Of a DNA stretch of 64,000 nucleotides, positions 91 to 20,405 are shown piece by piece. The notes beneath the pieces were generated by a model. The model saw only the letters and a program-made list of their open reading frames with translations. It was not told where the DNA came from and made no database searches. Where the stretch lies: NCBI GenBank assembly GCA_027490995.1, contig JAIXWY010000008.1, forward strand, positions 1-64,000. The letters run 5' to 3'. The first letter of the stretch is position 1, and the number at the start of each line of letters is the position of its first letter. Made by a program: the position numbers and the translations under genes. This stretch comes from Opitutaceae bacterium (GTDB lineage Bacteria; Verrucomicrobiota; Verrucomicrobiia; Opitutales; Opitutaceae).

Positions 91-357
91 CTATGTCCTG
101 ACATGACCCCTTACGGCTTTTGCGTAGCCAAGCCGGTCAAGAACGAGGCCGTTCGGCAACACCACGAATACGTGGTCAGCCTTTGCTGGATCGAGCGCGG
201 AGACGGTGCAATGGAGAGTTCCGAGACCCTGTTTCCATGCCCGGTAGGCAAAATGAAAACATCCCCCTTGGGAAAAAAGTTCATCGTGCTGCTTGGCGAG
301 GATGAACGATCGCAGGTGAGCTGCTAGCCGTTCAGGATTATGTGTGGGCGGTGCCAT
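91..357 (-). CDS. Hypothetical 88-aa protein downstream of short pAgo
   Basis: Small ORF starting ATG only 15 bp after the Argonaute stop codon, on the same strand, so probably the last gene of the defence operon. No family is recognised with certainty. The sequence has a GGCFHFA motif (Cys33), a DHVFV motif (His62) and LVLD (Asp74). That Cys-His-Asp order and spacing recalls small papain-like or transglutaminase-like folds, but this is inference. There is no clear Shine-Dalgarno before the ATG. It ends in a TAG at 91, and the 90 bases to the window edge show nothing recognisable. It may be a real accessory gene or the truncated remnant of a longer one. Confidence 0.5.
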   Translation of the reverse strand: MAPPTHNPERLAAHLRSFILAKQHDELFSQGGCFHFAYRAWKQGLGTLHCTVSALDPAKADHVFVVLPNGLVLDRLGYAKAVRGHVRT

Positions 358-372
358 ACTTTGAATGCCGAC

Positions 373-1902
373 TTAGATGTAGTGCTTGAAGGGCAACGGC
401 ACTTCTCCGCCTACCGGACCGCTCGTGAGGATTTCGCCAACTGCGTCGGCAAATTTCAGCGTCACGGGCATACCGTCCGAGAACCGGCAACAGTTGTAGT
501 TCAACTTGGTGAGGCGAAGCACGTCGTTGAGAACGACCTCAATGTCGTGTTCTCCGCGGCACACATTGACGATGATCGGCTTCGGCACTTCCTTGCCGCC
601 GGGAAACGTCTGGAGGCGGGGCACAAATCCCTTCGTCCACAGCATCGCTGTGTAGCGGTCCGAAATGTGCGCCAATCCGCGAAGGATCGGCATCCGGCTT
701 CCCTGACGGTAAAGACGGATGTCGTTTGCTTCGACAATCCGGATGCCGACCACCTTGGTCGCTTGGCCGGCGGCTTCATTGAAACCGGTCCACTCCACAT
801 CATCAAATCGCGTGCGCCCGTGAATGAAGAGCTCCTTCGGCTTTTCTCCGTTGTTCTTCGCGGCGTAAGCGGCGATGGCGAGCGCGACGATCTCCTTCGC
901 GGCAGCGCGCGACAGGTGAAACTGGCGGGTCTCGGGAGTATACCACTTTCCAACCGAGCCCTTGAATACCACGCCATCGCCTGAGTCCAAAAACATCTGT
1001 GCCGCGCAACAGGCATTCCGAGGATCGTTGGCAGTGTTGTCCTGCTTGAAAACCAAGCCGAGATAACACACACCCGGTCGCACACCGTGCAGCTTCCATG
1101 GACGGGCACCAGACTTGTAATACGTTGCGGTGCTCAGATTCCACGCGATGTCGGCGCGGATGGTCGTGAGGTCGCGCAGCGGCTTACCGTTGGCCTTGAC
1201 GACTTCAAGCGGCATGAGCGTGCTGTCGCGCACGATTTGAGTGACTGCTTTGGATTTGAGCAGCCGTCCCTTGAGTTGGTTGCGGAAGTCGGGCTCGAAA
1301 TCATACGCGACCTCCTCCTCCGCGAGCGCATCCATGCCCGCGAGATAGTCGATGTTCTTGAATTTCTGCACCAACTTGGGGTTCAACTTTCCGGGAGCTT
1401 CCACCCGGTTCGCGCGGTTGACGTTTTGCGTCGGGCGACACACCCGGTAGAGTTCATCCGGGACGATCACGAACCAGATTGCCGGTTGGCGCTCCTCGTC
1501 CTTGGTCGCTGCAATTATGGGGTCAGCATAGAGCGACGCAGTCTCGTAGATACGTCGGTGCCGGTCATCGTAGTGCAGCAGCTTTGAGAGGCGGTCCTTG
1601 TCCAGGATTACAGACTGTATGGGCTTTGGCTCGCATTTGATCCCAAAGACGGCCTCGAATCCAGGGAACGGTGGCCTTTCGCGCTTCAGCTCCGGATTCC
1701 ACACTGGACCTTGAATCGTTCCCATCCAGCGGAGGAACCGGTCAATGCCCTCTTGAGTGCCGATCACGCCGACGGTGATGCCGTATATCGGATCCTTACG
1801 GTCGAAAGGTCCAAAAAGTGTCAGACCGTCGCGCGGGTCTTCCATGACTTGGTTGTAGCCGAAGACCAATTTGGGCTCAGGGAGATGAATCAGCTTATTC
1901 AT
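373..1902 (-). CDS. Short prokaryotic Argonaute (MID-PIWI), SPARTA type
   Basis: 510-aa protein of the usual short-pAgo length (MID plus PIWI, no PAZ). The C-terminal PIWI signature is clear: LTKLNYNCCRFSDGMPVTL followed by KFADAVGEIL, and further upstream NACCAAQMFLDSGDGVVFKG. The first PIWI catalytic Asp position reads YLGLVFKQ, so the slicer tetrad appears absent, as expected for short pAgos, which bind guide and target but do not cut. The start is the ATG at 1902, which has AGGAGG seven bases upstream and overlaps the APAZ stop by 8 bp. An upstream in-frame ATG at 1941 is less likely. In the SPARTA family such proteins pair with TIR-APAZ, and target recognition triggers TIR NADase activity and cell death or dormancy. 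The two upstream ORFs are exactly that partner. Confidence 0.92.
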   Translation of the reverse strand: MNKLIHLPEPKLVFGYNQVMEDPRDGLTLFGPFDRKDPIYGITVGVIGTQEGIDRFLRWMGTIQGPVWNPELKRERPPFPGFEAVFGIKCEPKPIQSVILDKDRLSKLLHYDDRHRRIYETASLYADPIIAATKDEERQPAIWFVIVPDELYRVCRPTQNVNRANRVEAPGKLNPKLVQKFKNIDYLAGMDALAEEEVAYDFEPDFRNQLKGRLLKSKAVTQIVRDSTLMPLEVVKANGKPLRDLTTIRADIAWNLSTATYYKSGARPWKLHGVRPGVCYLGLVFKQDNTANDPRNACCAAQMFLDSGDGVVFKGSVGKWYTPETRQFHLSRAAAKEIVALAIAAYAAKNNGEKPKELFIHGRTRFDDVEWTGFNEAAGQATKVVGIRIVEANDIRLYRQGSRMPILRGLAHISDRYTAMLWTKGFVPRLQTFPGGKEVPKPIIVNVCRGEHDIEVVLNDVLRLTKLNYNCCRFSDGMPVTLKFADAVGEILTSGPVGGEVPLPFKHYI

Positions 1903-2524
1903 CCAAGTCCTCCTCATCGTCATCGGCGTCGGCGTCATCATCGACGGCCTCGGCCGGCTGTTCTTCGTCAGGCTGGTAAGGCGGCAGCTCCTTGTCTTTT
2001 TCCCAAACGAACCGAACGGGGCTTAAAAAGCTTTCGGGCAATAGAGGAAGCGCGAACGACTCCTTTGCATTTACCGGCAAGAGTAGCTCGTTCGCGCCGT
2101 TAGCGAGCTGTGCGACCGCCGCCTGAATCATGTCGGCCCAGCGATCATTGAACCACGATTTGCATTCCCGGCGCCGCAACCGATGCTGCTTCGCGGCGTC
2201 GGAATATGGGATGCCGTTCAGCGTGAAGGCGACGTGGGACCGGAGATGAAAACCAAAGCAAGGCCAGAGGGACGGAAGCACCTCCATACCGAAGTGCCAG
2301 CCTTGCGTGCCGAGTTGAGCGCCAGTCCGGTCTTTTAGGATTTTCGAACCGACAAGCGCGCGACCGCCTTTGGTCTTGTTGGGTCGCACAAATGCAACCT
2401 GCTTTCGCGCGGCGACGACCTCCGGTGGGAACCAATAGTAGTTCTCCTTGCTCGCGAGTTCGTAGGGTTTAAGTCCGGCGGAGAGGAGCTTACCCTGAAA
2501 CGCGAGACGCATCAGGCGGGTCAC
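1895..2524 (-). CDS. APAZ C-terminal half of a split TIR-APAZ protein
   Basis: 209-aa ORF that begins at a GTG overlapping the TGA of the preceding TIR ORF (GTGA). It matches the C-terminal half of APAZ domains: GWHFGMEVLPSLWPCFGFHL, then AAKQHRLRRRECKSWFNDRW. The same frame stays open upstream of the GTG and encodes EKRDARNVVTRLM, the conserved APAZ DARN-V segment, so the native protein almost certainly continued from the TIR ORF through a -1 shift near the A-runs at 2544-2554. The joined product would be about 473 aa, a normal TIR-APAZ length. The C-terminus is a run of about 24 residues rich in Asp and Glu. SPARTA TIR-APAZ proteins have a similar acidic tail that blocks the pAgo nucleic-acid channel when inactive. 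Its stop overlaps the pAgo start. Confidence 0.82.
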   Translation of the reverse strand: MTRLMRLAFQGKLLSAGLKPYELASKENYYWFPPEVVAARKQVAFVRPNKTKGGRALVGSKILKDRTGAQLGTQGWHFGMEVLPSLWPCFGFHLRSHVAFTLNGIPYSDAAKQHRLRRRECKSWFNDRWADMIQAAVAQLANGANELLLPVNAKESFALPLLPESFLSPVRFVWEKDKELPPYQPDEEQPAEAVDDDADADDDEEDLDE

Positions 2525-3315
2525 GACATTCCGTGCGTCGCGCTTTTCGATTTTGGCTTGGCGTAGCCGTCTTGAAGGAAAGTTGTGAGCTTCGTCGTAA
2601 ACGTCATCCCGATTTTCGCCTCGGCATCTTCAAAGGCTTTGGCGAGGTCGTCAGCAGGGGCGAACGAAACGAAAAGTCCTCCCATCTGATGAACGGGAAA
2701 GGCAGGTTTGAACTTCGATTTTTCGAAGGGCTTTAAATTGTCCAGGCTGTGCAGGTAGATGTATTTCGGGGCGGCAGTGATTCGGAAGCGATTGGATGAA
2801 TACTCCTCCGGCTCCGCTGATACGCCCTCGGACGCGCTGTAACGTTTCTGCCACCAGTCGGCCGCCTCCGCTGCTCCGCCACCGGCTTTCGGCACTGCGT
2901 CCTCAACGAGAATCTGCATAAGCCGCCCCATGCCCACGCTCCAACTCTTGGAAAAGTCGGCCGCGTCCAGACGGTTGGCCTCGATGGGAAAATCATCGTA
3001 GGAAAGATCGTCCGCCCGGATGGGAAGAATGAAACGCTTCCCGCGCTGCTTGGCGACTTTCGAGGCCACGCCCAACTCATTCAGCACGCCTTGGCGATTG
3101 TAAGAATTCTTGGAGAGAATCAGGACGAATTTCGCCGCCTTGGTGCGAATCTCGCCTTCGATCTCGCGCCAGAAATCATCCCCCACCCGTAGACGCTCGA
3201 TGTCGCACCAAACCGAATAGCCTTCACGCATCAACCGCAGGGCCAGCCATCGTGCGATTTCGTTATCAGCGGGGGTCGCGTGACTGATGAAGATGGTCTG
3301 CAGCGTGTCGGCCAT
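2521..3315 (-). CDS. TIR-domain half of a split TIR-APAZ protein (NADase effector)
   Basis: 264 aa from the ATG at 3315, 20 bp after the DUF499 stop. Residues 1-140 are a TIR domain: IFISHATPADNEIARWLALR, VWCDIERL, DDFWREIE, KFVLILSKNSYNRQGVLNEL. Glu80 in VLNEL is the likely NADase catalytic glutamate. Residues ~150-255 are the N-terminal part of APAZ, ending IGMTFTTKLTTFLQDGYA before the reading frame runs out in THGMS-stop. The expected continuation lies in the -1 frame, so this looks like one gene broken by a frameshift. The break could be a natural inactivation, a programmed frameshift or a base-calling error in AAAATCGAAAA. An upstream ATG at 3381 exists but would overlap DUF499. Known role: degrade NAD(P)+ when pAgo meets invader DNA. 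Confidence 0.85.
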   Translation of the reverse strand: MADTLQTIFISHATPADNEIARWLALRLMREGYSVWCDIERLRVGDDFWREIEGEIRTKAAKFVLILSKNSYNRQGVLNELGVASKVAKQRGKRFILPIRADDLSYDDFPIEANRLDAADFSKSWSVGMGRLMQILVEDAVPKAGGGAAEAADWWQKRYSASEGVSAEPEEYSSNRFRITAAPKYIYLHSLDNLKPFEKSKFKPAFPVHQMGGLFVSFAPADDLAKAFEDAEAKIGMTFTTKLTTFLQDGYAKPKSKSATHGMS

Positions 3316-3335
3316 GGTCGGATGCGCACGACGGA

Positions 3336-6300
3336 TCAGTCCTTCGTGAAATCGTGCTGCGTGAACTTCAGCGTGCGGCAATTCTCGCTGATCGTGCGCA
3401 CCACATTGGGCGGGAAGCCTCCGGGGGCACTGGCCTGCACTTCGATGGTGATTTCTACGTTCGCCGAGAGGATGGCGACGAGGTGCTGCACAACCTCTTG
3501 AGAAATCTGCCCCGCATCCCGGTTCATCCGGGTCGCATCGATCTTCACTGTTCCATAGAAATGGTTCGGCGCGGTCGGCTGCGGTGGGTTGTTGGCGGGC
3601 GGATTGGTGCCTCCCGTAGTGGCCGCCCCCGGCTTAGCTCCTGGCGTCACGCCCGGTGGTGTTACGGGTGTCGCGCCGCCGGAGGTCGCGCTGGGTTTGG
3701 CCTCGGCAGCGATTTGAGCTTGGGCCGTGCCCGGCCTTACCAAAAGACCAAGCAAACCGTCAGCCGACACATTTACGCTCTGTCCGCCTTTCAGCCCGGA
3801 ATAGCGCTGGTTCTTTTCGTCGAAGCTTTCGGCGAACGCGAACGTCTCGGTTTCCCAGGTTGTGGATGCCAGACCGTCGCGGACCGCCTCGATCAAGACG
3901 CCGCTATCGCGCAGGCGCGGCAAATAGAGGTAGCGCGAAAAATCTTCCGCCAGTTGCTTGATCGCGACGTGCTCGCCTCGCCAGAGGGGCACATCGTCGA
4001 GGTGCTTGCGAAGGATGATTGCGCCCAACTGCGGCACAACCAATTCGACCGACTTCAGCTTTTTCCAGGCCCGCACCGCGAGCGCATCAGGCCCGGTTGC
4101 CCGGTGATTGGCCCACGCGAGCGGATCGGAGGCCCCGGTCTGAGTCGGGACGAGCACAATCTGATAGGTCTCCAGAATTCGGCTGTTCACCGTTTGGTCG
4201 GAGGCCTTTTTCTGGGCGGCAGCCTGACCACGCTGGAAGTTATCGAGATTGAGCGCGGGACGGTCGCCCTCCGCGTCGGCGAGGATCGACTTCCATGCCA
4301 GGAAGCGGCGGGTGGCGTCCTCCAGCTCCTCCAGCCGTTGGCGGTCTGCGGCAAGGAAGACGACGGTGTTTCGATTCAGTCGGGGGGAATTTCCTCGGCT
4401 ATCGAGCAACTTCTGAGCGACCGCGACGGCGGGGCTATCCGCTTCCTTCGACCAAGGGCTCTCGGGAGAGAGAACGATCAAGCAAAGTGAACTTTCGTCG
4501 GGCACATCCACGCTACCGCCCGGGAAAGCGTGCACGCGTGGGAAGTCGCCCCGTTTCCGCGCATCGCGAAGTTCCTCGCGGATACGGTTCATGATTTCCT
4601 CAAGCACCCGATCCCGATTGCGCTTCAATTCGTCGCTTCGGTCGGCCGCAAGTTTGGCTACGGTCGGTTGCGTGGCATACCAATAGCGGGCGTTGTCCTG
4701 ATAGAGATAGGTCGCGGCCTGGGCGAGGTAGCGGAGTGCATCGCCAAAGACAGCGGGAGCTTCTCCGGGCAACGTGCAGCCGAGTTTGATGCGCCGATCT
4801 TCCATGCCGCGATTGGATGCGTCGTTCATCGGCGCCGACCCCATGAAAAGGGTGCGCGCGACACGCCGGGTCGCCGAGATTCGGCCAAGATTCGGTTTCT
4901 CCGCGTCGAGCTTTCGGGGAGTTGCATCGGGACCGTCCACATCCTTCTCGATGACGGCCGGCCAGCCCGACGGCAGATAACGAGTCAGCTCACCCTCGAT
5001 CTTCTGGGCACCGACAGGCATGTGCGCCGGGAGGATCAACAAGCCCTGATCGCCCGATTCCCAAAGGTGATGGATCACGGACGCCATGAGCCGCAGCACG
5101 CCACGGGTGCGTTGGAAGCGAACCAGTCCCGACCAATCCTGGTAGAGGCGCTCGAAAACCTCCGGATGCACGGGATAGGCCTGCTGCATCTTGCGCAGGT
5201 AGTCGGCTTCGCGGCACTCCGCCGGGAAATCACCGGGATGTTTAGCGTAGTGGTCGGTGAAGGCACGCACCACCACGTCACGCTGCACAAAGGAATCCGC
5301 TCCTTCGATGGGCTCGAAGAGTCGGCGGCGCACGATTTCGTAGCTCTCCTCCGCGTTTGCCGGCCGCCACTGCGAAGCAATCCGTTGAAACACATTGCGG
5401 AGACGCGCCACGGCCTCACGGCCACGGCTGCCGCCGACTTCTTCATCGTTCACGCCTTCGGTGGGTGAGACACCGTCGAGGCGGTCCGAGGCCGGAATAC
5501 TCACCACCAGCAACGCGCCGGGGATCGCCTTCACCTGCTCGCTGAGCGTCTGCGCGAACGTGAATTGAGTCTCGAAGTCGCCGCCACTCAACGTGCGGTC
5601 ATCCATGAGCTGGCGCGCGTATGCGACCCACTCGTCAATCAGGATGAGACAGGGCGAAGCATCCCGAATCACGGTGCCGAGCGCATCGCCCGGATTCGTG
5701 GCGGTCTCGTCTGCCTGGCGAACCTTCTCATACGCGGCCTTGCCGCCGAGCTGCCACGCCAGCTCGCCCCACATCGTGCGCACTTCGGTGCCGTCGGGCT
5801 TCTTTTCACTCTGGCCGGGGGTGAGCTGGTTGCCGACCAAGACCGCACGTTTGATGGACGAAGGAAGGTCGCCGCCAACTTCGCCCAAGACCGAATCGAG
5901 CCCTGGCAAATCCTTCGCCGGGATGCCCGCGGTGAGATGGAAAAGTGCGAGCATCGAGTGCGTCTTGCCGCCGCCAAAGGTCGTTTGCAGTTCGACCACC
6001 GGATTGCCGCCCGGCTCTTTCCGCCAACGGTGGACGGAACTGACGAGAAGCTCCCGAAGGCCAACGGTCAGGAAGGTGCGCCGATAGAATTCGACCGGGT
6101 CGCGATATTCACGCGCCGCGTTACCCTTGAAGACCTGCCAGAGATCGGCGGCAAACTCGGCTTCCTGATAATTGCCGCTGGCAACATCGGGATGCGGCGT
6201 GACGACATCGCGCCACGGTTTCAGGCCGGTCGGGGTCGCACCCTCGATCGCTTGATGCGCTTCCTTGCGGCGTTCGTTGTAAACTTTGCGGTCAAAGGTC

Positions 6301-6716
6301 ACGCGGCGCAGCTCATGTTTGATTTCGTCAGCCGCGTCGGCTTCGCGGCCGGCACCTACGGCCCGCAGCAGGCGCGCCACGCTATCGAGCGCGCGGTCGG
6401 CGTCGTCGTTGGAAAAAGACTTCTGGTGCGCCCAATCGTTACGGACCGCGATGAGTTCGTTGACGATTGCGCGATGAGCACGGCCAAGTTTGGCGGAGAA
6501 GAGATCCTTCCATTCCCGATCCAAGATCACGAGCTGGGCGGCAGCATCAAACGTATCGTCGGTCGCGCTCAGGCGGGTGTCGCCAAGCAGGGTCTTGGCC
6601 TTGGTGCGCCATGTGTCGCCGTAGGCTTCCTGAAGTTCCCGGGCAATAAAGGGCTGGAGCCCCGCTTGCAGGAAGCTGAGACCTTTGCCGACGCGTTCGT
6701 GATTGGTGATGGCCAT
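3336..6716 (-). CDS. DUF499 anti-phage ATPase with N-terminal HEPN-like domain
   Basis: 1126-aa protein. Residues 1-120 resemble the Swt1/HEPN-type helical domain, with RNDWAH at 92-97 giving the R-x4-H signature of HEPN ribonucleases. A P-loop follows: TTFGGGKTHSMLALFH, with GGGKTH at 248-253, and an acidic Walker B-like segment LILIDEWVAYARQL. This is the DUF499 AAA-type ATPase architecture. There is a Pro/Gly/Thr-rich linker near residues 1030-1060 and a small C-terminal domain. DUF499 proteins are known partners of DUF1156 methylases in predicted phage-defence cassettes, and here the two genes are 12 bp apart. It probably powers recognition or remodelling of invading DNA. The C-terminal end is followed 20 bp later by the TIR-APAZ gene. 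Confidence 0.9.
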   Translation of the reverse strand: MAITNHERVGKGLSFLQAGLQPFIARELQEAYGDTWRTKAKTLLGDTRLSATDDTFDAAAQLVILDREWKDLFSAKLGRAHRAIVNELIAVRNDWAHQKSFSNDDADRALDSVARLLRAVGAGREADAADEIKHELRRVTFDRKVYNERRKEAHQAIEGATPTGLKPWRDVVTPHPDVASGNYQEAEFAADLWQVFKGNAAREYRDPVEFYRRTFLTVGLRELLVSSVHRWRKEPGGNPVVELQTTFGGGKTHSMLALFHLTAGIPAKDLPGLDSVLGEVGGDLPSSIKRAVLVGNQLTPGQSEKKPDGTEVRTMWGELAWQLGGKAAYEKVRQADETATNPGDALGTVIRDASPCLILIDEWVAYARQLMDDRTLSGGDFETQFTFAQTLSEQVKAIPGALLVVSIPASDRLDGVSPTEGVNDEEVGGSRGREAVARLRNVFQRIASQWRPANAEESYEIVRRRLFEPIEGADSFVQRDVVVRAFTDHYAKHPGDFPAECREADYLRKMQQAYPVHPEVFERLYQDWSGLVRFQRTRGVLRLMASVIHHLWESGDQGLLILPAHMPVGAQKIEGELTRYLPSGWPAVIEKDVDGPDATPRKLDAEKPNLGRISATRRVARTLFMGSAPMNDASNRGMEDRRIKLGCTLPGEAPAVFGDALRYLAQAATYLYQDNARYWYATQPTVAKLAADRSDELKRNRDRVLEEIMNRIREELRDARKRGDFPRVHAFPGGSVDVPDESSLCLIVLSPESPWSKEADSPAVAVAQKLLDSRGNSPRLNRNTVVFLAADRQRLEELEDATRRFLAWKSILADAEGDRPALNLDNFQRGQAAAQKKASDQTVNSRILETYQIVLVPTQTGASDPLAWANHRATGPDALAVRAWKKLKSVELVVPQLGAIILRKHLDDVPLWRGEHVAIKQLAEDFSRYLYLPRLRDSGVLIEAVRDGLASTTWETETFAFAESFDEKNQRYSGLKGGQSVNVSADGLLGLLVRPGTAQAQIAAEAKPSATSGGATPVTPPGVTPGAKPGAATTGGTNPPANNPPQPTAPNHFYGTVKIDATRMNRDAGQISQEVVQHLVAILSANVEITIEVQASAPGGFPPNVVRTISENCRTLKFTQHDFTKD

Positions 6717-6728
6717 GAGGGCTTGGGG

Positions 6729-9700
6729 TTAGAAGAGCTGGGATTGGGTGGGAGCCGCCGCATCGCCTTCCGCATGGGCCAAGCGCATGATTTCGGGCCA
6801 GCTTTGCACAAGGGCGTTATAATTGAGCGCCTCGGCTGCGCGTTTGCGACGTTCGCAAAGGGTGTAGAGGCGATAAGCCAGTTCGCGGGAAGTTTCGGCG
6901 CGGGGACCAAGCTGTTTCACAAGTTCGGCCGTCGCGCTTTCGCCTCCGGTCGTGAGCACACGGATGAGATGATGAACGGCTTCCCAATGGGTAAGACGCG
7001 CGTCGTTAGCGGGCAACCAATCGGCAGGCAGTTCCTCCGGTTTGAGCAGGCGCACCTTGCCTTTGCTCGACGCGAGGATGCCGGCTTCGGCAAGACCGTG
7101 AACGCTGGTGTTCTTGGCCTTGCTGAGCATTTCGGCGACCCCGTAGTCACCATCGGCAAAGCCGTGTTGATCGAACCACGCAAGCGCCCAGCGACTGTCG
7201 CCATCGAAATCGCCTTCCTGCTCCGCTAATGCAGCGTCAAGCGTCTCGTTGATAAGCGTCAGTGCTTCCCGCACAGACAAGGTTTTACCTTGGGCATCGA
7301 GCACTTTGGCATAACGGGTAAAGACAGCCATACCCGGACCAATGGATGCTTGGGCCAAGTCTACAGGGGCGATGTTGCCAGCTTGCATTTGACGAAGCGC
7401 CGCCGGCAGTTCTCGTTGAAGTGCGCCGACAAAATCTCGACGCGTTGCGGTTGGCGCACTTGATGCGCGCGGGCGACAAACAAGCAAAATGGATGTCGAT
7501 AACGCATTCGTCCCAATCTCGATGAGACGACCTTTCTTTTCAGTGCGCAAAGGCCAAGTCCCTGTTATGCAAAAACCCGCATTGACGAGAGACGAAAGCA
7601 TGGTCTCCCAGCCGGTAGAAAACGAGCCGTTTGCTTGGTCGTCCTCCTCTCCATCTCCGTCGGTCTCGGATTGTTTGAACGCGTAATATATTGAAAGAGG
7701 ATAGGCCTCATGTTGCGCAGCGCGAAACGATGTAAAGCAACGAGCCAACCCATGCTCGAAGAAATCTCGGGCGGCCTCGCGGTTTCCAGCGTGTCGATAC
7801 GGAGTGGAAATCAGTTCGGCGTCTTTGGGAGTGGTTATTGTCGACACCCATTTCGGGTTGATCGGCGTCAAGTTTTGACGCAGCCAGAAATAGAAGAAAT
7901 CCGAAAGATCAGCATAGCCAATATTGTCGTAGTAGGGAGGGTCGCAGCTAATGACTACATTGGTCCTTTCGATCTCTCTCGCATCGCTCTGCCGAGATAA
8001 CCCTTGTGGCATTGCCGGCGAATTCTCCAGGACCAGCGCAGCACCTTCGACAACTCCCGTAAAGTCACCACCTGCGCCGGCAAATGGATTCATTTCCGGA
8101 TAGTCCCATATCATAGGAATGGCATGACGACCAAAAGCGGGCGCGTTCTTGTTCTCCTGTGGTTTCCACCGCCCTAAAGTGCAGTGGAATGTGGCGAGCT
8201 TGCTCGCCACCAATCCAAGATAAATTGCCACCGACTCCGCATATGCTCTGGCTCCATTTCCACCTTCATCCAGGCCTTTATGGTCATTTGGTAGGCCGGC
8301 CGCGATTGAGTCATTCAGGGCGACTTGATAAGCCTCGTGCACCAAATTCGAAAACGTCTTGAGCAAGACTAACTGCCGCTTTCCGAATAGCTCTTTCCAG
8401 CGAGTCATCCCATATTCCTGAACTCGAAATCCAAGTGCTTTAGGTGGAAGGCTTGTGTCCGGAATATCGGAAGGATGGTTCACATCGGCGATGCCTTCGC
8501 TCAGCTTATCTGGGGAAAAGTAAACGCGTCCTAGGTCGCTATCTGCAACGATAGCCATCAGCCTGGCGCCCATCCTCCCGGCTTTAGCTTCACCTCTTAT
8601 GTATTCAAACGGCATGGGGGCGCCGGAGAGTAGACACTTGAAACTCTTGCCTTTCCCCCACGACTTGGTTCCTAGCCTCACCGAGGCAGGATCTCCGGGC
8701 TTTCCGAAACGGACCTTAAAATGATACTCTTTATTGGTGATTATTGGTTCAATCCATGCCTCTTTTCCTTCCTTAGTGGATAAAACGAAAGTCGATGCTA
8801 ACGGCACCTCGCTTTCTCGGAAGACCGGATCAGGGCTTTTTACCGTTCGCGCCCAAAGCCAAGAGATCACCGTGAGCTTTTGACCGACGAGAGGTTTTAG
8901 GTCGGGGCGCTCGTTCGCCATTTCGGGAGTAACCTCAATTTTCGGGTATAATTGTCCGATTCGCTTTTCCGCTTCGTCACGCATCCATTTTCCATAGAAG
9001 CGCACATCTTCGGCGATACCCTGAGCGCCCCGCCAAGGTTTCGAGCTGAGATCACCGGTTCGGGCCTCTGGATTGACTGGCGGGCGACCGGCGAACTTCG
9101 GCGGAATCTCGATCATCGCCTTGTTGATGAGCACCGGAACAGGATTCAGGTCGCTGGCATAGCTTTCGAGACCGAGGCGTTGACCTTCAAGTGGCAGCGC
9201 ACCTCCACCAGCAAATGGATCGTGGAAGGCGGGCAGCCTGTGGCGGTCAAACAGTTTGGCCGCGCGGGGATGCGTGGCGTTTTCCGCGCAAGTGCGTCGC
9301 CATGACTGCCAGATTTCCTCCCGTGCTTCGCTGAGCACCACTTCGTTGGTGGTGTTCTCCCACTGGACGAGCTGCTCAATGAGACGAAAGAGGCGGTCAC
9401 GCTCCAGCTCGGCGAGAATATCGTCGAGAGTGGGCTCTGGGCCGGGCGCTTTAGCCTCGTCCCCCATCTGGCGCGCATATTCCGATGTCTCGTCCCAAAC
9501 CTTCTTCCTCTCCTTCAAAATCCGCTCGGCCCGCCGACGTTTCGTGGAATCGCTGCGAAGCACGTCCACGTAGCAGGACGGATCATCCACCATTTGCGCG
9601 AAGATAACCGCCCGCGCCGCCGCCAGCGGCCGGCGCGCCCACCAGAGATGCAAGGTCGAAGGATGTCCGTGCCGGATCGACTTTTCGTTAGATGAGGCAG

Positions 9701-9761
9701 CGTTGATCGCCTCCAGAGGAAGGGCGACTTCAATGAGCTTTTTGCGGATGGGAACGGACAT
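6729..9761 (-). CDS. DUF1156 DNA methyltransferase (anti-phage)
   Basis: 1010-aa protein with the typical DUF1156 N-terminus ([20 protein letters not shown], then [20 protein letters not shown]). SAM-binding motif I is [15 protein letters not shown] near residue 170. The amino-methyltransferase motif IV [20 protein letters not shown] is near residue 605. The DPPY tetrapeptide and motif order fit an adenine-N6 or cytosine-N4 DNA methylase. In DUF1156/DUF499 systems it is thought to mark self DNA. It is 8 bp downstream of the DUF3644 gene and 12 bp upstream of DUF499, so translation is probably coupled. The central part (about 7.7-8.9 kb) looks AT-richer than the flanking chromosome, consistent with transfer. 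Confidence 0.92.
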   Translation of the reverse strand: [1010 protein letters not shown]

Positions 9762-9769
9762 GGGCGAAT

Positions 9770-10768
9770 TCAGGCGGTCTTCTTCAAAGTTTTGATGGGG
9801 TATTGCTTATCGAGGTAATTGAATACTTCGGGCGAATAAAACGTTTTTCCCGGCGGTTTGGGGGTTTTCGGGTCAAGATACCGGCGTTTCGCATACTTGT
9901 CGCCGTCGGCTTCCATCTGCTTCTTGAAGCCGAGGAACTTCATGTCCGTTTTGAACCCTTCGTAGCGCTCACGACACCGGGAAATCAGTTCGTCGTAGGT
10001 GAACGGCCACCGTTTCCGGACATCCTCTTCCTTGAGTTGAAGCTCAGGCGCTGCGGGATTGTTCGTGATGCGAATATCGATGGCATCGCTCGACTGGGAG
10101 CGGGAAAACTCAGTCTTCACACACAGGGTGACCTGGTGACCTCCAATATCCTCCGTCTGGTGGGCCTTCTCCTGTTCACTAATATAGAGCAAGAGCTGCC
10201 GCATCTGCTCGGAATAGGCCGATACGGATGTGGGCTGTAACGCCTCGAATCCGTGAAAAAATGAGATCGGCATGAGGTAGAAGTTGTAGCGCGAGAAATC
10301 GACCCCGAACCAAGCTGTCGCGAGGGTAATGAAATTGCGAAGCGCAGCGGTCCCCACATCCTGCACCCGTCGGCTAAAGTGAATATCCCGATTCACGAAG
10401 TGAACCGAGGTATCACGGATTTCGATGAGCAGTTCGAGGTTGGCAAGGCAGGCAGGCTCAAACCCGCTGCCCTTATCACTCGCGAGCTGCTTCGCCAGGT
10501 AGAGGAGTTCGTGGGTCAGCGGACTACCGCTGCGTGTGGACTTGGGGTTGCCGTCCTTTCCCACCACAACGAGGCAGGAAAAGTCGTCGCCGTGATCGTG
10601 CAGCGTCTTCGCCTTGAGAAGCAGCTCCCAGGCGTTGGTCATGAGAATCCCAAAAATCTCCTCCCGGTATTTGAAATCGGGTTTGTTATACAGCTCGATG
10701 GAGGAGATCGCTGCCGCCAGAGCTTTGTTGAGCATCTCGGCGCTGCTGATGTTTGAATCGGCGGACAT
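9770..10768 (-). CDS. DUF3644 (HEPN-like) defence-associated protein
   Basis: 332-aa protein beginning at ATG 10768, 13 bp after the preceding gene. The N-terminal segment AISSIELYNKPDFKYREEIF followed by ILMTNAWELLLKAK is the DUF3644 signature. RDTSVH at residues 118-123 fits the R-x4-H motif of HEPN-fold nucleases, of which DUF3644 is regarded as a divergent member. Likely role: RNA-cleaving toxin or accessory subunit of the methylase/ATPase system. This role is inferred from family and context. The Lys-rich C-terminus (PKTPKPPGKTFYSPEVFNYL) suggests a winged-helix-like or nucleic-acid-binding tail, but this is not certain. Confidence 0.8.
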   Translation of the reverse strand: MSADSNISSAEMLNKALAAAISSIELYNKPDFKYREEIFGILMTNAWELLLKAKTLHDHGDDFSCLVVVGKDGNPKSTRSGSPLTHELLYLAKQLASDKGSGFEPACLANLELLIEIRDTSVHFVNRDIHFSRRVQDVGTAALRNFITLATAWFGVDFSRYNFYLMPISFFHGFEALQPTSVSAYSEQMRQLLLYISEQEKAHQTEDIGGHQVTLCVKTEFSRSQSSDAIDIRITNNPAAPELQLKEEDVRKRWPFTYDELISRCRERYEGFKTDMKFLGFKKQMEADGDKYAKRRYLDPKTPKPPGKTFYSPEVFNYLDKQYPIKTLKKTA

Positions 10769-10781
10769 GGGGTGCGAGGGG

Positions 10782-12377
10782 TTAGTTAGTGTGGGCGTTG
10801 CGCTGGTGCTGGCCGATAAAGCCGATCACGACTTTCTGGATCTTGGGCTCCCAAGAGAACGCGATGCGGATCGTCTCCTCGGCGTCGCGCGAGCGACCGC
10901 ACTTGATGTGTTCGTGAATCTCCAACTTTCCAGTCGGGGACGCGGACCACGGACACTGATACCACTCCTTCGCTTTGTGCGACCGAGCTGTGCTGTCGTT
11001 CTGATGCGCGGAGTAGTGCCAGCCGGTGATGGTCTCGCGAAGATTTTTGTCCAAATCAGGACAGCTCTTCGTTCCCGTCTTCGAATCGCGATAGACAACG
11101 GCCAACCACTCGAACGCCGCCTGAACCTCGCTGGGCGATTCAAACGGGGAATGCTCGTCTGACTTGCCGTTCAACGAAAACACAAGCTGGTCGCCATATT
11201 GTTGCTTCGCTCTCTCGATGGCCTCGACCACCGACTCCGGCGGAAGCTGAGTCTCGGCATCATTCGCCCGCCCGGCCTTTCGGTCCTCGATTTTTGCTTT
11301 CAGGGCAACCGTGAGCTGCTGCTCACGGAAAAGCGACTCGCTGACCGACTTCAGCTCACGCTCAAGCGAGACGATAGCTGCATCTTTCGCCTCGCAATCG
11401 GCCGCGTAGGCTAGCGCCAGCTTCTCCCATTCCTGATTGTCTTTGGCGGCGGCGATAACTCGATGGCGATCCAGCGACTGCAAGCGGTCGAACGAGCAGT
11501 AGTGCGGCGAGATGCTGTTGACGGTGACCTCGGCAATGGAGGCGAGCACCAGGTCGGCGAACCGTCCCGAGTTGAACTGGATGTGGTCTGCCGAGAGGTC
11601 CCGAACGGTCCAAAGCCGGTGATCGATGGTCTGGGAGATACGACGGAACCCGGGCCAGTAAACCCGCACCGCCCCATCGAAACAGGTCAGCCACGGGGGC
11701 AGAATCCGCGACAGGTTGTTCGCCACCTCAGCACTTTCAGCGACAATGACATGGGCAATGCCGGACAGATGATCGGCCATTTCCCCCGGATTGATCAGCG
11801 GCTTGCCCGACTGGCGATGGATACTCACCAACACGATGGGATGCGTCCGTTCCGGGCGCTCCAAGAGGGCGATGAACTGTTTGAGGTCGGCTTCGGTGTG
11901 CCGCAGTGGAAGGGGCCGGCTATGCAACCGCAGTCCGCCGCTGCTGGCGATGAACTGCTTGACGAGCTTGGCGATGATGCGAGGGCGACCCGGAGTCCGC
12001 CGAATCGGCATGATACCACCGTCAGTGCGGCCCAATGACTGCGTGAAGGAAAAGTAGTGTTTTCCGTCTGGCTCCCGAATCAACGCGAGGTCGGACACCC
12101 ACAGCAAATCAGACGCGCGCGCATCCTTCTGGGAAACCATCAAGCCCCAGCCGCGGGTGTTGTTGGCCTCGACTTGAAGGGCCTCGGCGCGAAATCCACC
12201 GCCTACGTCGGTCGCGGGAATCGCCACGGCACCGCTCATCCCTGCGGGTTTGAGCGCGAGACCAAGTTCGCGTCGGTCGTAGAGCCAAGCCCACGCTGCG
12301 TCCGCAAACGAACCGAAGAAATCGTCGCATTGTGCTCCGGCGCGGAGCTCGAAAGTAGTGCGATAGATGGTGCGCAT
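10782..12377 (-). CDS. Uncharacterised 531-aa defence-operon protein
   Basis: I do not recognise a catalytic family. The protein sits between the helicase and DUF3644 genes on the same strand, 93 bp after the helicase stop. The N-terminal ~290 residues are a mixed alpha/beta domain with no visible P-loop, HKD or nuclease motif. Residues ~300-350 form a probable coiled coil (CEAKDAAIVSLERELKSVSE). The last ~60 residues (EIHEHIKCGRSRDAEETIRI followed by VVIGFIGQHQRN) look like a small RelE/ParE-like fold often seen at the C-terminus of defence proteins, which is only a visual impression. It may be a sensor or specificity subunit of the cassette. Confidence 0.72.
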   Translation of the reverse strand: MRTIYRTTFELRAGAQCDDFFGSFADAAWAWLYDRRELGLALKPAGMSGAVAIPATDVGGGFRAEALQVEANNTRGWGLMVSQKDARASDLLWVSDLALIREPDGKHYFSFTQSLGRTDGGIMPIRRTPGRPRIIAKLVKQFIASSGGLRLHSRPLPLRHTEADLKQFIALLERPERTHPIVLVSIHRQSGKPLINPGEMADHLSGIAHVIVAESAEVANNLSRILPPWLTCFDGAVRVYWPGFRRISQTIDHRLWTVRDLSADHIQFNSGRFADLVLASIAEVTVNSISPHYCSFDRLQSLDRHRVIAAAKDNQEWEKLALAYAADCEAKDAAIVSLERELKSVSESLFREQQLTVALKAKIEDRKAGRANDAETQLPPESVVEAIERAKQQYGDQLVFSLNGKSDEHSPFESPSEVQAAFEWLAVVYRDSKTGTKSCPDLDKNLRETITGWHYSAHQNDSTARSHKAKEWYQCPWSASPTGKLEIHEHIKCGRSRDAEETIRIAFSWEPKIQKVVIGFIGQHQRNAHTN

Positions 12378-12470
12378 GGGACGTGGGTGGAGGACGGGGC
12401 GGCTACGGGTTGGCTTGGTTGGTCATCTTTGGGTGACGTGAAATTGTGCGAAAGTTCAAGGGGTGCCGCG

Positions 12471-15400
12471 TTACCGATTGAGCAGGTCCTTGACCCGAAG
12501 CGTGCGGCTCGCCTCGGCGAACTCGGGCTCCTGAATAAACGGCTGGCGGATGTATTCCGGCTGCTGCGCCAGCCCGTCGTTGACGTAAACGATTGCGAGG
12601 AACCACCGATCCGGCTGGTTGAGAGCGGTCCGAATTTCGTTCGCGGTGACGGTGATGGTTTCGGCCGACCACACGCGGCCCTTCACTTCGATGAAGCGCA
12701 AATGCCCGGTCTGTGGATCGCGACTCTCAATGTCGTATCCGAGGTTGCCCGCCGATACGTCGCGCGGTTCATGTCCCATCGCACGCTCATGGGCCATGAC
12801 GGCCTCCATCGCGAGGCGCTCAACCTCGCGGTCACTGGTGCCGAAAGGAGCACCCGGCTCCTCGACCAAACCGTTGGTGCCGATTCCCGCAAGGAGACCG
12901 GCGGGGACGATCAACGCGCCACCCAGCACGGTGGGCGGACGGGTGACGATCTTCTTCTCAGCCTCGAGTTCGGAGACACGGCGCTTGAGGCGATCCGACA
13001 ACACGTCGGCTCGCTGCCGGGCCTGCGACGCACTGATGCCACCGCGGCGTTTGCCGGCGTCCTCCTGAGCTTGGAGCTTCACCGCATACGCATCCCAATA
13101 ATTAATTTCCTGGGTGAGGCGCTGGTGAACCTGCTGCATCGTCTTGCGCAAGTGTTCTTCCCGGCGCACCGACACGGATTTAAGGTGTTCGGGGACTATC
13201 TGCTGGATCGCAAACGAGACGGCGCGGGTTTCGAGGTCATCGAGCAACCACGGCTGATCGAGCTGAGCCTGGATGGCGGCGAGCTGATCCGGCGACACAG
13301 GCAAATAGTCGAGGTATGGAGCGTGGCCTGCGCGAGCCGCCTGCCCGTCTTCATTCAAGAAGACGAATTCCAGGCGGCGAGAAATGACGGTCGGGCCACG
13401 ACCGGCATCAGGTTTCGCGTCTGTGATGGCGTGCTCAAGATAGAGCAACACTCTCGGCGTGGTGCCTTGGTCGAGCGGATCGACAAGCACCGCGCCCTGG
13501 CGCAGGAAGTCCCGGTGCTTCTCAAGCACGAGATCAACGGTGGCGTCGAGGAGCGGATGCCCGGGGGCCAGCAGCGCAGCCGGAGGCTTGCCGTCAAGAC
13601 GAACAGACTGTTTGTGAAATGTGATTCGCTCGTAGGCCTTCAAGACCGGCGCGCGCAGTCCATTCGTTCGATCCCGCTGCCGGATTTCGGTGGGAACGTG
13701 GCGAATCTCAAAACGCTGCGGTTCCCGTTTGGCAAGTTGACCTCCAAACCGAGTGAAAGCCTCGGTGAAGAACGCGCCGATGTAGTGAGGTTGAAGCTTC
13801 CGGGCTTGCGCCCGCTCCATCTCATCCCGGATGGCTTGGACGCGACTGGCTGACAACGTGTCCTGAGAGAGTTGCCGCTCGGCGAGCAGTTCGCGAAGAC
13901 GCTCGGTATCGAGGTCGTGCTGAATCACACGGTCTAGGCGCGCGCGGACAGCGGGGTCTTCGTTGTTACGCACGGCGGCAATGAGCAGCTCCTTGAGCGA
14001 CTGGCCTTGCAGCACTTTGCCGAGAACGTCGAATACCGCATCGGTGCCGAGCGCCTCGCGCTGTTGTTCAAGCTTGTGGAGCAAGCGAAGGAAGACCTCA
14101 CCCTCGCGGGTGCCGTCAGCGACCAGATTCCAAAGGTGGCACTGGTCCCGCTGGCCGATACGGTGAATGCGACCGAAGCGTTGTTCGAGACGGTTGGGAT
14201 TCCACGGCAAATCGTAGTTCACCATGAGGTGAGCACGTTGCAGATTGATGCCCTCGCCCGCCGCGTCAGTGGCGACGAGAATCAAAACCTCGGGATCATT
14301 CGTGAATGCCTCCTGAATCTGCCGACGCTTTTCACGGGGCGTCTGGCCATGAATCGTCACCACCGCAGCCGGACTGCCTAGCAACGTGGAAAGGCGGTCG
14401 GTGAGGTAGTTCAGCGTGTCACGCTGCTCGGTGAACAGGACGAGCTTCCGGCGATTACCCGCTGGATCAAACATGGCGGGATTGTCGTGCAACGTTTCCG
14501 CGAGCTTCTGCCACTTCGAATCGTTACCGGATCGGCGTAGCGATTGGGCCGCTTTCTCCAAGTCGCGCAGCAGAATGATTTCGGCCTCCAACTCGGCGAT
14601 GGTTTGCGCGGCAGTCGCGGCATCGGTGACGGCCTCTTCGGCCTTTTCGATCTCCGCCTCGGTGGCGTCCTCCAAGTCTTCGATGTCCTCCGGGTCAAGG
14701 TCTGTGGGGTCTTCGAGAAGGCCGGAACGGCCACGGCGAAGTGTCTGTTCCTCACGGAGCCGTTCTTCGAGACGCTCGCGACGGCGTCGGAGCGATTGGT
14801 AGATGGCCTCGGGCGATGAAGCCAAACGACGTTGAAGTATGGTCAGGGCAAAGCCGACGGTCCCTTTGCGTTTCTCGCTTTGAAGCTGATCCGCGAGGTT
14901 GAACTGGTTTCGGACGTAATCCGTCACGCGAGTGTAAAGCGAAAGCTCTTCGGGCGAAAGCGGGCAAGGAAGCGTGTGTGCAAAGCGCTCCGGGAAGAGC
15001 GGCTTCCCCTCCATCGTAACGAGACCCTCCTTGACCATGCGGCGCATGAGATCGCCGGTGTCCTGGACATGAACGCCGTCGCGGAATTTCCCCTCGAAGC
15101 GATCGCCGTCGAGGAGCGAAAGGAAGAGCTGAAAGTCCTCTTCTTTGCCGTTGTGCGGTGTGGCCGTCAGCAACAGGAGCTGGCGGGTGTGCTGTGAGAG
15201 CGTCTGGCCGAGGCGATGGCGCTTCGTGTATTTAACCTCTGAGCCGAAGTAGGAGGCAGACATCTTGTGCGCCTCGTCCACGACCACGAGGTCCCAATCG
15301 ACCTGCGACAACTTTGCCTGCAAATCCTCGTTTCGGCTGAGCTTATCGAGGCGGCAGATGCAGAGGTTGTGCTCCTGAAACCAATTGCCCGTGCGCGACG

Positions 15401-15965
15401 CCTGCAGGGCATCGTTCGTCATGATGTCGAAAGGCAGATTGAACTTCTGGTCCAGTTCGTCCTGCCACTGCTCAACGAGAACGCCGGGAGAAACAATCAG
15501 GCAGCGCGCGACATCGCCGCGAATGATGAGTTCTTTGATCAACAGGCCCGTCATGATCGTCTTTCCCGCGCCGGGATCATCCGCGAGCAAGAACCGCAAG
15601 GGTTGGCGGGTGAGCATCGTTTCGTAAACCGCCGTAATCTGGTGGGGAAGCGGATCGACCGACGATGTGTTCACAGCGATCATTGGGTCGAAAAGGAAAC
15701 CGAGGCGCAGTCGCTGAGCTTCGGAAACGAGCTTAAAGAGAGCGCCATCCGCAGTGAACGAGAGGGGACGCGTGCGTTGGACGACCTCCAACTGATGCTC
15801 CTGAGCGCGGAAAAGAAGCTGGGTGCCGGGCCGTCCTTCTCCGTCCACGAAGGTGACTTCCAATGTGTCAGCCCCGTGCATTTTGACGTGCTTAACCGTC
15901 ACGAGGGATGACGGCAGAATCCCCCGGACGACGGCATTTACGGTAATTTCTTCGAGGCGAGCCAT
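12471..15965 (-). CDS. SNF2-family helicase with C-terminal DUF3883 (defence)
   Basis: 1164-aa protein and the first gene of the operon. Helicase motifs in order: Walker A LADDPGAGKTIMTGLL (GAGKT 132-136), VVVDEAHKM (DEAH 230-233), LLTATPHNGKEEDFQ, and in the second RecA lobe ILVATDAAGEGINLQRAHLM plus LEQRFGRIHRIGQ. Two acidic, coiled-coil-like insertions lie around residues 400-480. The C-terminal ~110 residues contain GYDIESRD and LRFIEVKGRVW, the DUF3883 core with a PD-(D/E)xK-like arrangement. Similar SNF2 helicases occur in DISARM and DUF1156/DUF499 systems, where they act on unmodified or invading DNA. The start ATG at 15965 faces the divergent LysR gene across 116 bp. Confidence 0.92.
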   Translation of the reverse strand: MARLEEITVNAVVRGILPSSLVTVKHVKMHGADTLEVTFVDGEGRPGTQLLFRAQEHQLEVVQRTRPLSFTADGALFKLVSEAQRLRLGFLFDPMIAVNTSSVDPLPHQITAVYETMLTRQPLRFLLADDPGAGKTIMTGLLIKELIIRGDVARCLIVSPGVLVEQWQDELDQKFNLPFDIMTNDALQASRTGNWFQEHNLCICRLDKLSRNEDLQAKLSQVDWDLVVVDEAHKMSASYFGSEVKYTKRHRLGQTLSQHTRQLLLLTATPHNGKEEDFQLFLSLLDGDRFEGKFRDGVHVQDTGDLMRRMVKEGLVTMEGKPLFPERFAHTLPCPLSPEELSLYTRVTDYVRNQFNLADQLQSEKRKGTVGFALTILQRRLASSPEAIYQSLRRRRERLEERLREEQTLRRGRSGLLEDPTDLDPEDIEDLEDATEAEIEKAEEAVTDAATAAQTIAELEAEIILLRDLEKAAQSLRRSGNDSKWQKLAETLHDNPAMFDPAGNRRKLVLFTEQRDTLNYLTDRLSTLLGSPAAVVTIHGQTPREKRRQIQEAFTNDPEVLILVATDAAGEGINLQRAHLMVNYDLPWNPNRLEQRFGRIHRIGQRDQCHLWNLVADGTREGEVFLRLLHKLEQQREALGTDAVFDVLGKVLQGQSLKELLIAAVRNNEDPAVRARLDRVIQHDLDTERLRELLAERQLSQDTLSASRVQAIRDEMERAQARKLQPHYIGAFFTEAFTRFGGQLAKREPQRFEIRHVPTEIRQRDRTNGLRAPVLKAYERITFHKQSVRLDGKPPAALLAPGHPLLDATVDLVLEKHRDFLRQGAVLVDPLDQGTTPRVLLYLEHAITDAKPDAGRGPTVISRRLEFVFLNEDGQAARAGHAPYLDYLPVSPDQLAAIQAQLDQPWLLDDLETRAVSFAIQQIVPEHLKSVSVRREEHLRKTMQQVHQRLTQEINYWDAYAVKLQAQEDAGKRRGGISASQARQRADVLSDRLKRRVSELEAEKKIVTRPPTVLGGALIVPAGLLAGIGTNGLVEEPGAPFGTSDREVERLAMEAVMAHERAMGHEPRDVSAGNLGYDIESRDPQTGHLRFIEVKGRVWSAETITVTANEIRTALNQPDRWFLAIVYVNDGLAQQPEYIRQPFIQEPEFAEASRTLRVKDLLNR

Positions 15966-18912: not shown

Positions 18913-19011
18913 GGTGGTCGTTGTCCTGGTTACGGACGGGGCCCCGCCGCTCGGCAGTCGCAGTGCAGGAGATTCCGGCAAAGCGGTCGTTATCGATGCA
19001 GGAGATCACGC

Positions 19012-20247: not shown

Positions 20248-20405
20248 GGCCGGGGGGAAGGCAAACGGTCCTCCGCCGTTCCCGCAACCTCCATCCCGCG
20301 TCCCGAGGCGAAGTCGAGTTCCCGGTTCCCGCGCGCACCCGGGTCGCGTGAGCGGGGCATGCGGCGGCGCGTTCCCGCACCGTCCCGGTTCAGGGGTAAA
20401 TACTT

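Follow-up and report, generated by a model that had tools for sequence, protein, structure and literature searches.

The window analysed here is the first 64 kb (64,000 nucleotides) of contig C10 (JAIXWY010000008.1, 149,362 bp) in the 3.47-Mb, 15-contig assembly of an Opitutaceae bacterium, and it carries a minus-strand run of defence genes in which a SPARTA-type short prokaryotic Argonaute (pAgo) module follows the three core genes of an Hma system. The order of transcription is HmaA, HEC-07, PDC-S19/DUF3644, HmaB, HmaC, TIR-APAZ (as two open reading frames, ORFs), short pAgo and an ORF of 88 amino acids (aa) (Table 1). The gaps are 93 bp (HmaA/HEC-07), 13 bp (HEC-07/PDC-S19), 8 bp (PDC-S19/HmaB), 12 bp (HmaB/HmaC) and 20 bp (HmaC/TIR-APAZ), with 15 bp between pAgo and the 88-aa ORF. 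The window begins at contig base 1, and the contig ends 90 bp past that ORF. A preliminary description of this DNA listed eight minus-strand genes; its named genes, coordinates and strand stand, with the amendments that TIR-APAZ is divided between two ORFs, that pAgo most likely starts at 1899 instead of 1941, and that the 88-aa ORF is unsupported as a member of the system.

Table 1. Genes of the Hma-SPARTA run and the divergent regulator, with positions in the window.
Feature	Positions	Strand	Basis
LysR-family regulator, divergent from HmaA	16007..16948	+	Pfam HTH_1 and LysR_substrate; homologues in relatives
HmaA: SNF2-type helicase carrying a nuclease-like NOV_C/DUF3883 domain at its C-terminus	12471..15965	-	PADLOC HmaA 1620.6 bits; Pfam NOV_C, SNF2-rel_dom, Helicase_C
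HEC-07, PADLOC Hma-embedded candidate	10782..12377	-	PADLOC HEC-07 170.7 bits; no Pfam family
PDC-S19/DUF3644, HEPN-type candidate	9770..10768	-	PADLOC PDC-S19 347.9 bits; Pfam DUF3644 152.9 bits
HmaB: DUF1156 amino-methyltransferase, probably N6-adenine	6729..9761	-	PADLOC HmaB 1357 bits; Pfam DUF1156
HmaC: DUF499 AAA+ ATPase with a fused Swt1-like HEPN domain	3336..6716	-	PADLOC HmaC 1024.9 bits; Pfam HEPN_Swt1 and DUF499
TIR-APAZ, first part: TIR domain plus the N-terminal stretch of APAZ, open frame stops at 2521	2521..3315	-	PADLOC TIR-APAZ 242.6 bits; Pfam TIR_2; 8qlo_A
TIR-APAZ, second part: C-terminal APAZ region, other frame, GTG start	1895..2524	-	PADLOC TIR-APAZ 140.5 bits; 8ifk_A
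Short prokaryotic Argonaute, SPARTA type, one open frame	373..1899	-	PADLOC pAgo_I 635 bits; 8ifk_B
88-aa ORF, not counted in the system	91..357	-	no family, plasmid or related-locus match

HmaA, HmaB and HmaC, identified with PADLOC models, are all present at one co-directional locus and make up the Hma (Type-1 BREX-related) core. HEC-07 and PDC-S19, both known candidates, sit between HmaA and HmaB; the preliminary description took these first five genes as a known kind of predicted defence cassette. Pattern searches find GAGKT, DEAH and IEVK in HmaA, FAGGG and DPPY in HmaB, RNDWAH, GGGKT and LILIDE in HmaC, and the R-x4-H motif RDTSVH in the DUF3644 protein. DUF3644 is counted among the HEPN families, and HEPN domains with an R-x4-6-H motif are predicted RNases (PMC3710099). 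Sources differ on the type of HmaB, which is given as an N6-methyltransferase in one paper (PMC12839542) and as an m5C (5-methylcytosine) enzyme in the paper naming Hma (PMC8565338); PADLOC describes it as an adenine methylase. Restriction of unmarked DNA by HmaC and HmaA is a proposed role (PMC12839542), and from the gene families methylation and restriction are predicted for the Hma of the window. No sequence match to HmaC or HmaB was found among solved structures.

The last three genes had been described as TIR-APAZ, short pAgo and a small ORF, and matches to families and structures confirm the first two as a SPARTA pair, with the TIR-APAZ partner directly upstream of pAgo on the same strand. 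Residues 2-508 of the pAgo match the solved SPARTA pAgo 8ifk_B (E 5.9e-144), while the two parts of TIR-APAZ match the solved SPARTA chains 8qlo_A (first part, E 7e-43) and 8ifk_A (second part, E 1.7e-13). The most likely pAgo start is the ATG at 1899, which overlaps the APAZ stop and near which a seven-row alignment begins. Guide RNA and target single-stranded DNA switch SPARTA on, whereupon NAD(P)+ is hydrolysed, and the catalytic TIR residues named for CrtSPARTA are Trp46, Glu77 and Tyr105 (PMC11156904). In an alignment to 8qlo_A, whose numbering is by our own count offset by 2 from that of PMC11156904, the corresponding residues of the window TIR are identical. E fills the Glu column in 67 of 68 aligned rows; a regular expression for the Glu motif matched 27 of 67 ORFs and was too strict next to the aligned column. 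Neither PADLOC nor Pfam places the 88-aa ORF in a family. It has no plasmid match and, apart from copies of the window itself, no match in the related loci gathered, and it was rejected as a third SPARTA gene on the absence of related-locus and plasmid matches. Elsewhere in the same genome, on contig C12 (505125-510413), three more TIR_2 matches lie on one strand within ~5 kb, in long open frames of 1106, 845 and 858 aa.

As assembled, the SPARTA locus of the window has its effector gene interrupted. The two TIR-APAZ ORFs lie in different frames, overlap by 4 nt with the break near 2520, and match consecutive stretches of the PADLOC profile PDLC02403 (3-249 and 260-441 of 443), so that no single continuous TIR-APAZ protein is encoded. 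The gene is one open frame in 75 of the 79 assessable relatives (of 86 loci), the broken copies being those of L048, L072, L080 and L117. A conserved programmed frameshift was rejected, since the break position differs between the window, L048 and L080 (near residues 260, 207 and 285, respectively, in L045 numbering). Each of the remaining long genes of the operon is open in one frame, and a general problem of sequence error is therefore not obvious. The frame break, together with the start of the window at contig base 1, would fit a reading in which the contig end holds no more than the pseudogene remains of SPARTA, leaving Hma, HEC-07 and PDC-S19 as the functional operon. We regard that reading as possible but on the unlikely side: the pAgo is open over its full length, both parts of TIR-APAZ retain strong family scores, and the TIR-APAZ genes paired with Hma in L045, L046, L047, L050 and L084 are open. 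It is compatible with the other readings considered below, which concern intact relatives.

The pairing of Hma with SPARTA recurs in other bacteria. An alignment of seven pAgos, run against 84,980 species with a single genome each, gave 463 confirmed relatives, and the analysis continued with the best 80. Seven of these best 80 loci have co-directional Hma genes, all seven in metagenome-assembled genomes (MAGs), labelled Latescibacterota (L045), Verrucomicrobia (L046 and L048), Prosthecobacter (L047), Pyrinomonadaceae (L050), Pseudomonadota (L059) and Rhodoferax (L084); at one more, L106, the Hma genes lie on the opposite strand. Random placement would put HmaC within 12 kb of about 0.01-0.04 of 80 loci, a crude expectation that ignores defence-island clustering. 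The association is above chance, and the pairing is not unique to the window.

Maps of the relatives, some extended with longer stretches (L156 of L047, L157 of L045, L158 of L046, L159 of L048) and with cargo named from profile matches or shared families, reveal three SPARTA slots. In the interval between HmaB and HmaC are L045 (L157; HmaA, 886 aa, 388 aa, HmaB, TIR-APAZ, pAgo, AbiEi, AbiEii, HmaC), L046 (L158; HmaA, 756, 166 and 209 aa, ThsA, HmaB, TIR-APAZ, pAgo, HmaC) and L048 (L159; HmaA, 224 and 210 aa, ThsA, 180, 325 and 271 aa, HmaB, broken TIR-APAZ, pAgo, AbiEi-type 154 aa, AbiEii-type 340 aa, HmaC). SPARTA follows HmaC in the window and in L050 (HmaB, 119 aa, 115 aa, HmaC, TIR-APAZ, pAgo), and it precedes HmaA in L047 (L156; TIR-APAZ, pAgo, 373 aa, HmaA, 809 aa, HmaB, HmaC) and in L084 (TIR-APAZ, pAgo, HmaA, 260 aa, HmaB, contig end). 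The contig of L059 starts within pAgo and continues with AbiEi-type, AbiEii-type and HmaC genes. Behind HmaC, the SPARTA of the window lies outside the core genes, not between them as Hma-embedded cargo does. The preliminary description proposed to look for the same gene order in other genomes: the exact eight-gene order of the window was not seen in any locus examined, but the order is not absent from all relatives, given the succession HmaC, TIR-APAZ, pAgo in L050 and SPARTA in or against Hma at the seven loci.

The 388-aa protein of the L045 operon (L045:4372-5538, equal to L157:7778-8944) matches part of the long pAgo and SIR2-APAZ profiles (PDLC02394 positions 65-357), and the 886-aa protein beside it has Ppl- and AriA-like matches.

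Trees of the parts were compared for how often INDEPENDENTLY; the HmaC tree has 21 rows, and L144 and L148 were too distant for the Hma trees. On the HmaC tree, the window, L045, L046, L048 and L059 form one clade (100/100) with SPARTA in 5 of 5 rows. L047 and L050 are placed elsewhere, and the SPARTA label requires at least three changes over the starred branches, while L084 stands apart on the HmaA and HmaB trees; L047, L050 and L084 thus look like separate associations. For the Hma label, the pAgo tree implies a minimum of four changes across the 54 assessable rows of 91, the other 37 having too little flank or lying outside the test and not entering the context count. The independence of L047 is less sure, because it falls in the same nine-row pAgo group as the window. 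Label changes on these trees may be gains or losses.

The window HmaA groups with the same clade at 100/100 once L143 is added, the four alone being unsupported. HmaB behaves differently: holding the window HmaB with those of L045, L046 and L048, a group taken from the HmaC tree, is rejected (approximately unbiased (AU) test, p 8e-5), and it sits with the HmaBs of L141 and L149, both without SPARTA. As HmaC and HmaA share the clade and HmaB does not, the ATPase, the helicase and SPARTA seem to have moved together while the methyltransferase was exchanged. Within the HmaC clade the position of SPARTA differs, being after HmaC in the window and before it in the other members.

Small gaps in a co-directional run are consistent with the one transcription unit that had been proposed. 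No promoter-like or terminator-like site was found in the HmaC/TIR or DUF3644/HmaB junctions; this null is weak evidence, as the scan totals were no higher than those of shuffled sequence (3 vs 4.6; 17 vs 19.9) and even ahead of HmaA the same scan detected no promoter on the minus strand.

Divergent to HmaA lies the LysR-family gene, whose true start, judged by eye against homologues, may be at ~16046. A divergent LysR homologue is likewise found upstream of HmaA in L157/L045, L158/L046 and L159/L048, so that LysR heads the operon in all four clade members readable at that end. L205 has it as well, ahead of a related HmaA, that of the SPARTA-free locus L143. In the Hma loci L106, L141, L145, L146, L148-L156, L206 and L207 tblastn found no such gene, and for some of these the sequence available before HmaA is short. 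The LysR gene therefore tracks this HmaA clade, not SPARTA as such. A common LysR binding site, sought by eye in the window, L157, L158 and L159, was rejected as not convincing for the window; in the LysR-HmaA interval of the three relatives a dyad TGACT...AGTCA, or near it, stands just upstream of the LysR start, and it is not evident in the window.

Restriction genes also adjoin SPARTA outside Hma. Among 86 loci (the best 80 and six plasmids), the most frequent neighbour families after the two SPARTA genes are helicase (7 loci), HmaB (6), HmaC (6) and HsdM-type (6). SPARTA lies within Type I restriction-modification (R-M) genes in L052 (HsdR, HsdM, 311 aa, TIR-APAZ, pAgo, HsdS) and L074 (HsdR, 291 aa, TIR-APAZ, pAgo, HsdS, HsdM), HsdS overlapping the pAgo stop by 4 nt in both. 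Further neighbours are Type I R-M genes in L085 and L093, Type III genes in L061 and L118, and a IIG enzyme in L049. A Pfam tally of 59 immediate co-directional neighbours gives Methylase_S 3, DUF1156 2 and DUF499 2; in the tally of 95 other nearest neighbours these three are not among the 25 most frequent of 78 families. Orthogroups of HsdS, type III restriction enzymes and methyltransferases were earlier recorded in pAgo operons (PMC6299218), and a statistical association of pAgo neighbourhoods with R-M and further classes of defence genes was reported in 2009 (PMC2743648).

The repeated pairing in unrelated bacteria suggests layered defence assembled from known parts. Our preferred reading, to which we give a probability of about 0.6, is a layered Hma restriction operon headed by a divergent LysR regulator, with SPARTA and the HEPN domains as last-resort effectors. 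Under a single LysR-type regulator, all genes of the run, for first-line and second-line defence alike, would be expressed jointly. HmaB would methylate self DNA, while HmaC and HmaA would recognize and cut unmethylated incoming DNA. Should an invader escape, for example through modified DNA or inhibition of Hma, SPARTA would act as the next layer: loaded with guide RNA, it would sense complementary single-stranded invader DNA, assemble and destroy NAD(P)+. The HEPN domains of HmaC and DUF3644 may in addition cleave RNA. The link would consist of shared expression and complementary failure modes and not of a protein-to-protein gate (compare PrrC and DarTG2), and we infer the functional tie of methylation to NAD+ depletion, which the preliminary description had raised, on this footing.

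Several results weigh against this reading. TIR-APAZ is broken in 2 of 7 assessable Hma-linked copies (the window and L048) and in 3 of 73 others, an excess that is suggestive at best (Fisher p 0.058). The break has probably put SPARTA out of action in this genome, unless it is an assembly error, and the NAD+ depletion earlier proposed as a backup may be dead here. Further Hma loci numbered 18 (nine stretches from the window's phylum, L140-L148, and nine plasmid regions, L149-L154 and L209-L211), and SPARTA is in none of them; nor does any of nine Acidobacteriota SPARTA genomes scoring above 500 bits, centre excluded, adjoin Hma, and the pAgo neighbours L051 and L055 are without HmaB and HmaC. 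Several of the loci are short MAG contigs (L059, 6.1 kb), and binning, hence the host phylum, may therefore be wrong. Co-transcription is weakly indicated by the gaps and the signal scan. R-M or Hma-type genes near SPARTA, found in 22 of the 86 loci, are co-directional in 19 and opposite in 3 (two-sided p 0.0009), which speaks for the layered reading; the figure is a lead, as the 19 include the weak matches L062 and L102 and the reference set was drawn partly from the same loci.

The surveys behind these counts place the pairing as a recurrent minority arrangement. The majority of the Hma loci and of the SPARTA loci covered lack the other partner, which does not support the joint system first envisaged. 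In 288 genomes of the window's phylum an HmaC-type match occurs in 26, a pAgo_I match in 10 and both in 4, the two adjoining in the window's genome only. In 396 genomes of Acidobacteriota, the phylum of L050, pAgo_I matches occur in 21. This sample overlaps the best-80 set (L191, L192 and L193 are suggested to be the genomes of L062, L081 and L069), and context is small at two of its nine higher-scoring loci (3.9 kb at L193; no upstream side at L195). A general preference of SPARTA for Hma was rejected on the nine. Upstream of one of them, L187, lie co-directional Type III R-M genes; among eight lower-scoring Acidobacteriota pAgo loci, Type III R-M genes share the strand of pAgo in L201, and an HsdM match lies opposite to pAgo in L203. 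Viral contigs yielded one SPARTA relative, L204, without Hma within 14.9 kb.

Plain defence-island stacking would account for such a minority without any functional tie: Hma operons would tolerate insertions, and SPARTA would use the upstream promoter and be decaying here. Consistent with this, Hma slots hold cargo that varies by lineage (AbiE, Thoeris ThsA, XisH/XisI, Uma2, TIR with kinase, STY4851 with helicase), Hma is not present in any of the 6 plasmid SPARTA regions viewed, the SPARTA slots vary between relatives, and the TIR-APAZ frame is broken in both the window and L048. Stacking does not lead one to expect SPARTA in every row of an HmaC clade with records of three phyla, the 19 co-directional against 3 opposite neighbours, or the 4-nt pAgo/HsdS overlaps, and we consider it a real but less probable alternative to layered defence.

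A direct gate after the manner of PrrC, which is held inactive by its host R-M system (PMC3710099), would have the Hma complex bind and silence SPARTA, and release or feed it when Hma is inhibited or single-stranded DNA of the invader is exposed. The joint presence of HmaC and SPARTA in one clade while the window HmaB was exchanged would fit such a gate. We nonetheless hold a gate to be very unlikely, as SPARTA occurs elsewhere without Hma, no fused or shared domain is seen, and the SPARTA slot shifts within the HmaC clade. A bolder reading makes SPARTA and this HmaC subclade an integrated two-stage immune machine, co-inherited across phyla with an exchangeable methyltransferase, in which the Hma helicase-nuclease would expose single-stranded DNA for SPARTA or license it and failure of restriction would trigger NAD+ depletion; we think this improbable, if a little less so than the gate.

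Hma, SPARTA, HEC-07, PDC-S19 and embedding in Hma are already known. Hma (PADLOC; PMC8565338), the Type-1 DUF499-centred BREX-related system of PMC12839542, combines in one operon, like the window, a helicase with a nuclease-like C-terminus, a DUF1156 methyltransferase and a HEPN-DUF499 ATPase; to this the window adds the SPARTA module and the LysR regulator. The main text of PMC12839542, in the version available, contains no mention of pAgo, Argonaute, TIR, SIR2, LysR, Thoeris or AbiE. The window pAgo resembles the solved SPARTA pAgos over its full length and the TIR residues are conserved, but this copy lies in an Hma operon and its TIR-APAZ is split. Hma and SPARTA had been called separate systems, which is too narrow, since embedding of defence genes in Hma is published: the Hma-embedded candidates (HEC), found through "guilt by embedding", come from a 2024 preprint by Payne et al. 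as cited in PMC12255303, PMC12988326 and PMC12111858. The window has such extra defence genes inside Hma in HEC-07 and PDC-S19. Its further cargo differs in being a two-gene Argonaute system, placed behind HmaC here and between HmaB and HmaC in L045, L046 and L048.

PrrC and DarTG2 in Type I R-M operons are likewise toxic effectors embedded as a second line (PMC3710099, PMC12255303), and the DarTG2 operon also has a regulator at its head (PMC12255303); the effector of the window, unlike these, is an NADase that is directed by a guide and senses the invader itself, and no gating of it by a restriction enzyme is known. The earlier pAgo surveys share with our loci the R-M genes in pAgo operons or neighbourhoods (PMC6299218, PMC2743648). 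In the available text of PMC6299218 DUF499 has no mention, and in that of PMC2743648 COG1743, the DUF1156 methyltransferase group, has none; DUF499 was not searched in PMC2743648. SPARTA inside Hma was not found described in the open-licence literature searched. The loci are natural operons that package self/non-self restriction with an Argonaute-triggered suicide system, apparently several times over, and they point to a wider pattern in which restriction operons of Type I and Type III also take in SPARTA. Such operons make it testable whether defence systems cluster for the sake of common expression, joint transfer or a true functional gate.

The surroundings of the operon differ in composition, with a G+C of 52-63% in the operon region and 66-68% at 20-24 kb of the window, and genes for RNase E/G and an FtsW/RodA-type protein adjoin it. 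Three of the plasmid Hma loci have features of their own. In L149 (Meiothermus taiwanensis plasmid) the Hma genes lie upstream of a same-strand run including BrxL, tubulin-like and vWA proteins. In L150 (Thermus oshimai plasmid, 9938-13981) the HmaB match is divided in two, and an IS4-family transposase gene lies where it is interrupted. In L151 (Chlorohelix plasmid, 17441-20898) genes for a TIR-domain protein and a Ser/Thr kinase follow HmaC, in the slot that SPARTA occupies in L050 and the window.

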